Of a stretch of 64,000 bases of DNA, positions 56,497 through 62,695 are shown one piece after another. A program made the translations under genes and the position numbers. Position 1 is the first letter of the stretch, and each line of letters starts with the position of its first letter. Source of the DNA: Thozetella sp. PMI_491 (Eukaryota > Ascomycota > Sordariomycetes > Chaetosphaeriales > Chaetosphaeriaceae); the NCBI GenBank assembly GCA_021432635.1, contig MU270031.1, positions 746,118-810,117 of the forward strand, given 5' to 3'. The notes beneath the pieces are model-generated. The model searched no databases. It was not told the DNA's origin and worked only from the letters and a program-made list of their open reading frames with translations.

Positions 56497-59400
56497 TCAT
56501 CGTCGTCGCTCTCGTTCCCAGCAGTTAGAGCGCTTTGAGTGCTTCACACCCCAGCCATCCGTCGTAGCAGTTGTCGTGGCAGTGATGTCCTTTCCATCGA
56601 AACCGGCAGAGGGTTTCGCATTCCATCCACCACTGTTTGGCGCATCTTTCAGCCACTTCAGAGGCTTTGCCTCGTCAAGGCGTAGCTGAGCTGCCTCAAA
56701 CTCCTCTGAAGTCATAGTCATAGCCATGGTGCTTAGCTGGTCCTTCTTGACCCATCTCTTCTGCCCGACTGGGGTTAATTCTTCCAGTTCCAGCGTGTTG
56801 CTGAGATAGACAGTTGCAACCTGATCATTCCCCTTGAAGAACGCATGCATTGCAGCGATCTCTCCAGTAGCTCGTGTAGCTGATTTCGGCACAATATAGA
56901 TATTTGCGTGCGACGCTCGGGATGCTGCAACAACATTCGTCGGTCTATCTCCACTCAAGCCGAGGCCATCGCTACGTGTAGCGTCGTATACCGCGATATG
57001 TGCGTCATGTCCTTGTGCACCTGTAATTTTTAGACGTTAGTAAAACCAGATGTACATAGATCGGGGCTGGCCTACGTACCTGTTACGGTTCGGACGTCAA
57101 TAAGATCAGGGTGTGCGTGGATTGGGGCCAACGATGTGACCACCTGGTTGAGAAGTTCGGCTTGCGCTTGAGAGGGCGACATGACCAAGACGTGGGCTCG
57201 GTGTCCAACTTGATCGCTGTTGGTGTCGGGATGGATATGACAGGCTCCGTATTGAAAAATAGTGCGCACTACCTCTCGAACAACACGGGCAGTGCCGTTG
57301 TTGATAGGGCTAAAGCCAGACTTCTTGTGCCTCGAACCCGGGGAATCAACCAACAGGAGGAGCGAGCTACCCTTGACATTTGGGCCGCCTAGCACACGAA
57401 GGATGCGACGAATACTCCGGTTAACCAGGTCGGATGATGATCCATAGCTATAATTCTCTGCCATCATAGTACCGGCGTAGTACCTGGTTGAGACCCAGCG
57501 CTCAACGCCGCCATGCGCACGCATATTGATGTCGAGATAGTTGACATCTACCCCAGCGAAAGCAGCGCGCTTAAGAAAGGCCATTCGGATCTGCGCAGAT
57601 GGGTTGATCATGTCAAGCGCCGGAAGCGTGGTGATGTCTGTCGTCACTGTAAAAGGGCCAATTTGCTTGATATCGCCAGTGACTAGTCGGAGGATGGCCT
57701 CCGGCGCGCATTGCCATTGAGCATATTGCGATGCTTCTGTCTCTCGTGCGCCTTCCTCAGTCAGTACCACTTGCCAGGTACAGAACTCTGGGAAGCGGCT
57801 GTGGAAGCTGTATGCTGCCAGAGCGGTGCAAATGATGACATCCGATTCCATGGAGACTTCGCTCATGACATCGTACATCGTTGTCTCGATGTACTGGCTG
57901 TTGGCTTCCCAGCCTCGGGGATCGGAGCCTCGAGTTTTGATGAGCTCTGCCAACCATTCGTAATCCTCTGATGTGTCGATCAGGTGCTTGACACGGGCGC
58001 AAAAGGACATATCACCGCCCCAATGCTGCCTGAGCTTATCTTGACCGCGACACTTTTGCCCAAGCTCGAAGAGCTGGTACTCAGTCTCAGCCAAGTTGAC
58101 GATCTTGTCCTTCTCTTTCGGAAACACGTTGAGGCGCGTGATCACGGCGTCCTTTTTACCGAACCGCTCAAAAATGGAGCGAGTACGGCCGAGAAGATCG
58201 TCGCATTGGCGGTTTTGGGAGCCAATAATTAGTGCTCGACACTTGTCCGGATTTACCGTCGATGTATTGCAGCCACCAAGACAGGCGAGAGCAAGAAGCG
58301 TAAGGCCAGTCTCCGTCTTTCCGGTTCCCGTTGCGCCGGAGGTAAGCCATATTCCGTATGGGAGGTCGCTAATGTTGAGAATAGCTGCCTGCTGGTGCTG
58401 ATTGAGGCGAGAAAACTGCTTATACGTGTTGTACAGCGCTTCATCTGCCTTGGCCGTTTGCTCGCGGGCCTTGATGGCACGAATAGCCTCAAGAAGAGGG
58501 AAATGCTTGAAAGCATTAACCCTATCGGCCGGGTCTGGGTCTGTGAACCGAAGAAGATAGTCGCTAATGCCATCCTTCTCACGACAATCGCCCTAAACAT
58601 TCAGCGCATTGATGCGCATGTTCAAAGTAGCTTGACGATGGAGAGGCGTAATATTGCCTGTTACAGAAAAGCGATCTTGCTGGGCTGCCACCATTGCCTG
58701 AGCCATGCTGTTGTTGCGAACCGAGACAGCTTTGAAGGAAAACTGGATGATAGGTGCCCGGCCGCATGCACGGGGCCAACCCGGCTGGCGAGGCGCTGTC
58801 GCATAGATAAAGGCTCTGCACCACGAGAGTTCTCTTGGTACGGCAAACCGGCAAGCGTGCCATACTGGACGTTTGATGCTTTTCTCTAGAGGAGGCGGTC
58901 GGGCATTTTTATCCTTTACCAACGCCGAGACCCATTCGCGGAGGCGAAGTAGGTGCTCCTCTGCAGTATCACCCGCAATAAACGAACCCTGCGGATCAAA
59001 CTGACCGGGTTTCCGGCTGACAGTAAGCTCAGCTTTGATCACATCTTGCTGGCTCATGTCCTGGTTGGAGATTGTCTGGATAGCCGCTCGAATGATCTCG
59101 CTCGCCGCTTGTGGGGTATCAACATCCCGCGCGTGTCCGGTAGTTACTTGAAGTAGATACTGGTATATCGTGTCGATTAGCTCATTATCTGTGAACATAC
59201 CAGCCTCCGGCGTCTGAAGTTTGTATTCAGAATCTAGCTGGAAGTTGAAGGAGGCTCCAACTGGAGGAAGTAACCCCAAGCATTCTTCATCGCGGAGGCA
59301 AAAAAAGTAGCCACATTGGACGCCGTCGATAGATTGGCCGGGAACCTTAATGGGAGCCCAGGTAGTTGGTATTCCGAGGATCTGGTCTTCAACCGCTGAC

Positions 59401-61205
59401 TGGATATCGTATTCGAAGATCTCAGAGAGGCCAATCATAACAGAACGGTGATCGCGTGTATGGAAGAGGGTTGTTTCCCTCATTGGGGTCGCGTATCCTG
59501 ATATTTCCAGGGAACGAATGTCGGTCTTGCTCAACAATCGGGCATCTTTTGAGTTTGGGAAGAAGTACTCAAGTTTGTCGATCCGACCAACTGACCAATA
59601 CGCTTGCAATAAAGCCCCAAAGTCTTCAAATGCTCCCAGTCTTAACTGGTTCATCTGTATTGTAATTGTAGGCTCTGCTTGAGGGTCGTGGCGGAAGATA
59701 GGGGAACTGAGCATGTGCTCGACGATGCTCTCCACCTTGAATGAATATGCATACACCTGCTTGAACTGCATCCAATTGACGCAGAGGCGAAGATGCTTTG
59801 ACACTCTTAACTGGAACGAGGTGTTCCAATCGTCGGATGAGATAGGCTCAATACCAGTAATGTCAGAGAAGGGGATGAAGACACGTGCAAGGACGCCATC
59901 CTTTCGGTTCGGCACGGATACCATAACCGTGAGCCTAAGCTCAGAGCCACCGTCTCGCTCATACCTCAAGTTAGCAGCGAGGTAGATAAAATCATCTTCC
60001 TCGCGTATCATCTCCTTGGTCTTGTCGCAGAGTAGCTCAGGGACATCAACCTGAAAAGAGCTCGAAAATTTCGACGTAGAAGCGCGTAAGATGCTCTCCC
60101 AGGCTTTTCGATTAGCTGTAGGGGATTGCTGTTGTTGCTTATACTCATTCTTCGCGACATTGATGAGGTTTAATTGTTCCTCTGCCGATAAGCCACGGCC
60201 GAACTCGTCTTTGTCATCGTCCTGTCGCTTCTTGTGAGCGCGTTTTTTCGGCTTCTCTGGGATGGGATTCGGTGTCTGCCAATCGATGCCCCGTGCCGAC
60301 CTTTCATCGTCGTCGGATGAAGAGTTGTACTCATGGGGGTCTGCATCATCCTCGCAGGAACTCTCCTCGACTTGGCCGACGCTGTCTTGTTGCGACGGAA
60401 TGGTTGAGTCCTCTGGTGGATATGAGAACCCTTTGTGTGAGATTCCCGACCAATGGGCATACTTCCAGTCTTCATCAGAGACATTGTTGTTGTTGTTGTT
60501 ATGGATCCATAGCACGTCGGGGACGTTGCCTTCGATCGGCACAAATGCGAACACATGCCCATGGTTGGTGAGATAGATATATCCCAACTGGATAGGAGGG
60601 AGTCGGATGCTCTCGAGGTATGCAATGAGGATAGATGCGAGCTGATCCACACGGTACGTGTCTTTATTGTCCATGTCAAACTGCGGAAAGCGTTGGCCAA
60701 GCTCTCTATAGATGTGCTGTAGCTCAGGCAGGGTCGGAGTCTTGATGTCGGGGAACTGATTGCGGAGGCTATCAATCAGTGCAAGTAGGCCACACTGTAG
60801 GTTTGTCCCATCATTGTGGACGAGACTGAAACCCATTGGGAAGGTCTCTGCAAAACACTCCGCCGCAATCTGGTGGGCTCGATTCTAATAAACTTTGTGT
60901 CAGTAATGTACGATGAATTGCTTCGCTTGACTAACCTCAGTTGCCGGGTCGCCGACGTTCGCTGGCTCATCGATGACTGTGGATGGCTCATTCACGTTTG
61001 CTGTCTCGTTCGCAGCCGTATCGACGGCCCAAACTTTGTTGAGAGACTGAATGGTAGACTCGATTTCGGATTTGACGAGTTCGATCTCCTTACTATCGCC
61101 TTTGCTTTGGACACTCGAGATGACGGACTTCAGTGCCTCTTGGAAAGCAGCCTGTACTGCTCCCCGTACGGCCTGCTGAATATTATGATGTTCGTTGTTC
61201 GCCAT
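56497..61205 (-). pseudogene. OTU-like protease / UPF1-like SF1 helicase fusion, interrupted by one in-frame stop
   Basis: Exons 60936-61205, 57080-60884 and 56497-57020 form 1,533 codons including the final stop, open except for TAG at codon 854 (58593-58595). Residues 1-90: helical, coiled-coil-like. Residues 107-240: OTU/papain-like, with Cys121 in NLQCGLLALI and His234 in YAHWSGI (or H218 in LWIHNN) as likely dyad. A basic PKKRAHKKR stretch follows, then a beta-rich region (about 300-700) I do not recognise. After the TAG: Walker A GATGTGKT (940-947), motif II-like LTEEGAR (E1133; usual Asp replaced), motif III GDIKQIGP, and motif V/VI GAQGHDAHIAVYD and NVVAASRASHANIYIV. This is a UPF1-like superfamily 1 core. 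Both introns (51 and 59 nt) have good signals. It is either a recent nonsense allele, a read-through gene, or a sequence error. No in-frame ATG occurs between the TAG and about codon 1049, so re-initiation would lose Walker A. GC content looks lower than in neighbouring genes. Confidence 0.8.
58593..58595 (-). other. In-frame TAG within the OTU-helicase reading frame
   Basis: Read on the minus strand, the frame runs ...AAT GTT TAG GGC GAT... with coding-like sequence on both sides in the same frame. A CAG to TAG change (CpA to TpA) would be a single transition of the kind favoured by RIP. No GT-AG intron here preserves the downstream frame. Confidence 0.85.
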
Positions 61206-61850: not shown

Positions 61851-61967
61851 TCCACCTTTCACAATCAAGTTTCATGCCAAACAAATATCACCTTTAAGCT
61901 TACGGGCTCATCGGCTTAGCCGCGAAGACGTCTTTTACTCCGGCGATCTACGATTGAACTTCATATT
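61851..61967 (+). repeat. 117-bp direct repeat R1, copy 1
   Basis: Matches 62530-62646 over 117 bp with four mismatches by eye. It begins TCCACCTTTCACAATCAA and ends TTGAACTTCATATT. It contains CGCGAAGACGTCTTTTACTC. No coding frame is evident. Confidence 0.92.
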
Positions 61968-62084
61968 GAGCTGGGGGTAGTCAGTGGATTTTTCTTTTCG
62001 CCCAGCGTGGCCCTGGTACTAGAGGAACTGCGTGGTGGATCCAGACCCTGGTCTGACCAGGCCATACCAGCTCGATTTGTATAA

Positions 62085-62400
62085 GTAGTTAAGGGATGCC
62101 GTCCTACCTCTGGGAGGAGGACCATACATCTCCATATCATCCTTATCCTCATCCAGATCATCAAGAATAAAGCTTCATTCGTTTCCCTAGACAAGACCAA
62201 CCACAAGACCACTCTGTACGACCATTACGGGGCTTCCCCCCATTTCTACGTGTTCATTCAGCCCTGGTCAGAGCCCAGCACTCGTTGGATCTCGCATAGG
62301 CATGCCCTCTCCCACGTACCACTAGACTTACGCTGCTTCAACGGCCCTACCTACGAACTGGATCGCAAGATCGTGATATTGGTTCCGCGCTGTGGCTACT
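62085..62400 (+). pseudogene. Possible decayed coding fragment
   Basis: An ATG-less open frame on + ends at a TAG near 62402. It reads protein-like sequence such as HYGASPHFYVFIQPWSEP, then LRCFNGPTYELDRKIVILV. I do not recognise it. It lies between the two R1 copies, so it may be the remnant of a mobile element or duplicated gene, or chance. Confidence 0.25.
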
Positions 62401-62476
62401 AGGCTACGGAGTGTATGGTGGTGGTGTTGTGTGTGGGTTGTTCCGCACGTGCTCTGCTTCCTGCTCCCCGTTCTCA

Positions 62477-62529
62477 ATATTTCTTGCCCCAGATTGCGGC
62501 ATCACAAATGGGAGTTTGACTCACTTTTG
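62477..62529 (+). repeat. ~50-bp direct repeat R2, copy 1
   Basis: Starts ATATTTCTTGCCCCAGATTG; its first 37 bases match 62642-62678 exactly, with looser similarity after that. It abuts R1 copy 2 on its left. Confidence 0.9.
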
Positions 62530-62646
62530 TCCACCTTTCACAATCAAATTTCATGCCAAACAAACATTACCTTTAAGCTTACGGGCTCATCGGCTTAGCC
62601 GCGAAGACGTCTTTTACTCCGGAGATCTACGATTGAACTTCATATT
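62530..62646 (+). repeat. 117-bp direct repeat R1, copy 2
   Basis: Second copy of the repeat at 61851-61967; three of the four differences are transitions. It is flanked on both sides by R2, giving an R2-R1-R2 order. Confidence 0.92.
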
Positions 62647-62695
62647 TCTTGCCCCAGATTGCGGCATCACAAATGGGACCTTAACTCACTCTTTT
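62642..62695 (+). repeat. ~50-bp direct repeat R2, copy 2
   Basis: Second copy of R2, overlapping the last bases of R1 copy 2 and followed by a T tract of about 12 bases. Confidence 0.9.

Follow-up and report, generated by a model that had tools for sequence, protein, structure and literature searches.

Does a single fungal gene join a cysteine-protease-like module to a UPF1-type helicase, and is that gene still intact? The question is raised by a locus of Thozetella sp. PMI_491 within the window, i.e., the whole stretch of 64,000 nucleotides analysed here (assembly GCA_021432635.1, contig MU270031.1, positions 746,118 to 810,117). An earlier note had described this locus, from the sequence alone, as one open frame of 1,533 codons. 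The gene (56497..61205) runs on the minus strand from an ATG at 61205 to a stop at 56497, and joining its exons (61205-60936, 60884-57080, and 57020-56497) across introns of 51 and 59 nt gives exactly 1,533 codons. Strand, coordinates and codon number were therefore as described, but the frame is not open, as it contains 2 stop codons, of which one, codon 854, is internal. Sequence comparisons support the presence of both a protease-like module and a UPF1/IGHMBP2-type helicase in one gene, which we regard as a modular fungal accessory gene, now interrupted, with a function that we infer.

The protease-like module and the helicase

The module spans residues about 91-252 (60399..60884, minus strand, as for all features of the gene). 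The genome holds it three times; the two other copies were recovered in a genome search with E values of 4.6e-13 and 8.6e-6, and the pairwise module scores lie 33, 16 and 33 standard deviations above shuffles (500 shuffles per pair), so that the likeness exceeds chance. A further match at C66 (E value 0.24) has no Cys-Gly motif in either reading direction and was taken as chance. The putative catalytic Cys, C121, is located in the sequence NLQCG (60789..60803), in which Cys-Gly is invariant in 3/3 modules. The putative catalytic His, H234, is located in KYAHW (60450..60464); it is also invariant in 3/3 modules, where it is followed by W, Y, and Y. Both residues are found where the earlier note had placed them in its N-terminal cysteine-protease-like domain, while H218, offered there as an alternative catalytic His, is not conserved in the module family.

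A papain-like nature of the module is suggested by a weak fold resemblance to papain-fold proteases, obtained in a comparison against listed families and one that unlisted families could fit too. With OTU and other papain-fold deubiquitinases (DUBs) the module has in common this resemblance, the order Cys-then-His, and the aromatic residue after the His. However, none of the three modules matches the OTU profile (PF02338) up to E 5, and the two matches of this profile in the genome, at C79 and C41, are not module copies. Compared by sequence, the module profile has no match in the PDB up to E 10, and the structure model has no Foldseek match at E <= 0.001. PADLOC returned no match for any of the three modules, and PHROGs returned for the window module only two families of unknown function (E values 0.21 and 0.26). 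Of the OTU/papain-like domain originally proposed, the papain-like part thus stands as a suggestion short of proof, and OTU was not reached by sequence.

The superfamily 1 (SF1) helicase core occupies positions 56905..58337. The AAA_12 profile matches just above its cut-off (E value 3.3e-6; 27.3 bits against 27), AAA_11 remains below its own (23.3 bits against 27), and TIGR00376, the IGHMBP2-family helicase model, matches with an E value of 2.5e-7, yet far below its cut-off. What we take to be the SF1 motifs, GATGTGKT (58337-58314), LTEEGARETE (57764-57735), TGDIKQIGP (57680-57654), INMRAHGG (57530-57507), TVTGAQGHDA (57089-57001, across intron 2), and VVAASRASHA (56934-56905), stand in the expected order. 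The proposal of a UPF1-like SF1 core is supported by the AAA_12 and TIGR00376 matches and by this order, which are also the features common to the gene and the IGHMBP2/UPF1/Sen1-type SF1B helicases. The gene differs from these in some 900 further N-terminal residues and in a Walker B Glu for Asp; the CH zinc domain of UPF1 gave no match (Pfam scan of four gene pieces to E 1, which also underlies the negatives below on zinc knuckles, Rep, PIF1, NACHT and NB-ARC). At Walker B the window gene reads TEEG and P0002, an ENA metagenome protein of 1,156 amino acids, reads TEEA, as compared with DEG/DEA in the SF1 helicases L005 and P0003; the window gene lacks the Asp-Glu of UPF1/IGHMBP2-type helicases. 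Because P0002 has the same change, it is not tied to the stop. L005 and P0003-type helicases share the SF1 core with the window gene, but the C-terminus of L005 has seven zinc knuckles, none of which was matched here. At C11 lies an SF1 frame that is more distant, contains seven zinc knuckles and is open over the 1,162 codons examined. The helicase exon gives weak matches in PADLOC (best E value 0.00095) and the helicase also does so in PHROGs.

Between the two modules lies a region (58596..60224) mostly common to P0002. The earlier note had called it large, unrecognised and beta-rich; the Pfam scan likewise recognised no fold, but beta-richness gained no support from the predicted P0002 model, which has a mean predicted local distance difference test (pLDDT) score of 34. 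The basic run that had been likened to a nuclear signal, KPKKRAHKKR, is present at residues 301-310 (60225..60254) and may act as one.

Intron 1 (60885..60935; 51 nt, GTTAGT...TATTAG) and intron 2 (57021..57079; 59 nt, GTACGT...TTACAG) are those implied by the earlier note. The public model P0001 (GQ53DRAFT_860504; 1,313 aa) spans the same gene with different splice choices, and leaves out both a segment immediately preceding C121 and further sequence in the vicinity of the in-frame stop. The segment before C121, which the 51-nt intron retains, contains F, F, P, and G residues that are invariant in both other module family members, and the 51-nt intron is preferred on this basis. The splicing of P0001 leaves the module hard to recognise in databases.

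The in-frame stop at codon 854

The TAG at 58593..58595 falls within conserved coding sequence. Before it, P0002 aligns with 31% identity over 503 columns (E value 2e-70), ending one residue short of the stop; after it, the alignment resumes directly behind the stop with 39% identity over 557 columns (E value 1e-118). P0002 itself reads through this position. Downstream, the first in-frame Met occurs at +195, which is behind Walker A (GTGKT at +89), so that the helicase is cut off in the assembly. With an in-frame stop separating the two halves, the idea that both activities reside in one protein is weakened. From these alignments the stop appears genuinely to interrupt coding in this strain, with an assembly error as the alternative, and the reading that we tentatively favour, at somewhat less than even confidence, is that of a decaying or truncated allele of a modular accessory gene. 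Repeat-induced point mutation (RIP) was rejected as the origin of the stop, as the composition of the gene is not RIP-like (TA/AT 0.62; (CA+TG)/(AC+GT) 1.29).

It is possible, although rather doubtful, that the gene is functional and encodes a full-length protein of 1,508 or 1,532 residues, the stop being either an assembly error or part of a 72-nt intron. There is a single internal stop in 1,532 codons, the same dinucleotide ratios speak for an intact gene, and an in-phase GT-AG stretch of 72 nt (GTAACA...GTTTAG) exists that could hide the stop. Nearly all of this stretch, however, falls inside the 503-column alignment, and its coding sequence has a counterpart in P0002, which stays in register until no more than two residues from the stop position. 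Its removal would delete this common sequence, which disfavours the intron but does not count against an assembly error. P0001 likewise avoids the stop by removing sequence common to P0002.

Other copies of the module and relatives of the gene

The two other copies of the module are found in differently built genes. At C2, a single frame encodes the module and, behind it, a Clr5 domain, and ankyrin-repeat frames follow (separate frames, a joint gene not being assumed). This locus (L006 159-7705, G000:C2) is a divergent pair, in which an oppositely oriented HET-NACHT frame lies next to the module-Clr5 and ankyrin frames. At C26, the module is contained in a frame of 991 codons (L032 4635-7607, G000:C26). 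The final 402 residues of this frame have a GIY-YIG-like appearance to the eye, but Pfam, searched up to E 10, returns nothing for them. With Clr5/ankyrin as the partner at C2, an unrecognised C-terminus at C26, and the helicase in the window, the differing construction of the three genes is the strongest hint that the module is a swappable part.

A search with the spliced protein gave three matches among 7,991 scored candidates, and P0002 was the sole close relative recovered (45% over its best local alignment, which covers 24% of the query). It resembles the window gene in the middle region and the helicase (31% and 39% by exon). The module region searched separately, against candidates of roughly 830-2,640 aa, matched only itself among 108, and profile A4 recovered only itself among 7,992 candidates; since P0002 was missed, the sensitivity of this profile is low. 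Neither viral contigs nor GTDB genomes yielded a relative by a pattern method requiring short conserved words. These protein searches bound the rarity of the architecture without proving it, and within their limits no second gene was found with the order module, long unrecognised region, and UPF1/IGHMBP2-type helicase. The earlier statement that no fungal system of this order has been described agrees with the open-licence literature, in which none was found, and is limited to that literature; in the papers on NOD-like receptors (NLRs) searched for the words OTU and helicase, both were absent from the main text.

Two observations weigh against the fusion being general. P0002, as a predicted model, is without the protease-like module, and relics of the same helicase clade at C73 and C42 have no significant module match within 9.9 kb at each (best E value 3.0). 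Both relics (L031 4727-5995 and L043 4730-4954) are broken.

Genomic setting, remaining alternatives and possible role

The GC content at third codon positions of the window gene is 0.57 and 0.59 by exon. The 8 further long frames for which it was measured in the window, which are open frames and not verified genes, all have higher values (0.62-0.90); those of three frames at the C2 locus are close to it (0.51-0.56). As DNA the gene is single-copy except for a stretch of 106 bp at 80% identity, in a search that skips very common words. This stretch (L020, G000:C16:920948-921053) corresponds to the 3' end of the gene, and no helicase frame was seen nearby. The low third-position GC, the lack of RIP-like composition and the single copy suit an accessory gene better than a transposon. 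The downstream neighbour presumably encodes an isocitrate lyase, and a very long Glu/Pro/Ala-rich low-complexity frame, partly N, extends into the right end of the window (L034 1682-9901).

It is improbable that the gene is coding sequence from a mobile element, be it Helitron-like or of another kind that uses a DUB and a helicase. Helitrons are known to pair DUB-type domains with a helicase (passages of PMC9741609 and PMC5148889), and Helitrons or Helentrons with OTU or VTD domains combine them in one protein (same passages of PMC9741609); broken helicase relics exist, and there is a repeat family on the 5' side of the gene. In contrast, the Helitron hallmarks, Rep (HUH) and a PIF1-type helicase, have no match in the gene pieces, the contrast with Helitrons drawn in the earlier note therefore holding, and the gene is not repeated as DNA. 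The upstream repeat is a separate insertion of about 510 bp (61964-62480) that ends in short inverted sequences, ATATTGAG...CTCAATAT, and has the five bases ATATT repeated at both edges. It has at least 43 matching genome rows including itself (40 of 93 candidates scored), and was inserted in the first of two tandem flank copies of ~170 bp, the second of which (near 62638-62650) represents the empty site.

That the locus comprises two adjacent genes, one for the module and middle region and the other for the helicase, is quite improbable: the stop does separate them in the strain sequenced, but no in-frame ATG lies between it and Walker A, and the P0002 model spans the boundary as a single protein. 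An endogenised RNA-virus polyprotein is very improbable, for although a protease followed by an SF1 helicase occurs in tymovirus-like viruses, the gene has a UPF1/IGHMBP2-type profile and introns, no polymerase profile in its pieces (neighbouring frames not scanned), and no relative in viral contigs by the pattern method.

As a modular accessory gene, the locus would have arisen by shuffling, through which a papain-fold, OTU-like module was joined to a UPF1/IGHMBP2/Sen1-type SF1 helicase. The helicase would bind and move on RNA or single-stranded DNA, probably that of a genomic parasite or an aberrant transcript, while the module with its C121/H234 dyad would be the output, cleaving a ubiquitin-like conjugate or a host protein. 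Such an N-terminal swap may be likened to the exchange of effector modules in fungal nonself-recognition proteins, and the role would be one of defence. In the strain sequenced, the stop would remove the helicase and leave at most a protein of roughly 853 residues, consisting of the module and the middle region.

A broader proposal, which we consider unlikely but worth stating, is that in filamentous fungi an undescribed papain-fold protease module circulates as a swappable N-terminal effector of intracellular surveillance proteins, the window gene being a nucleic-acid-sensing counterpart of NLRs in which the helicase would be sensor and motor and the protease the output. The likeness to fungal NLRs with swappable N-terminal effectors lies in the C2 copy, which belongs to a gene of Clr5/ankyrin type next to a HET-NACHT frame, whereas the window gene has no NACHT or NB-ARC match. 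With one stop-interrupted gene and a putative enzyme activity, it is the module family, more than the locus, that is of value. If the module is a protease that moves between genes of the helicase, Clr5/ankyrin and other types, fungal nonself recognition would gain an effector class, and the window gene would provide a testable helicase-based sensor.
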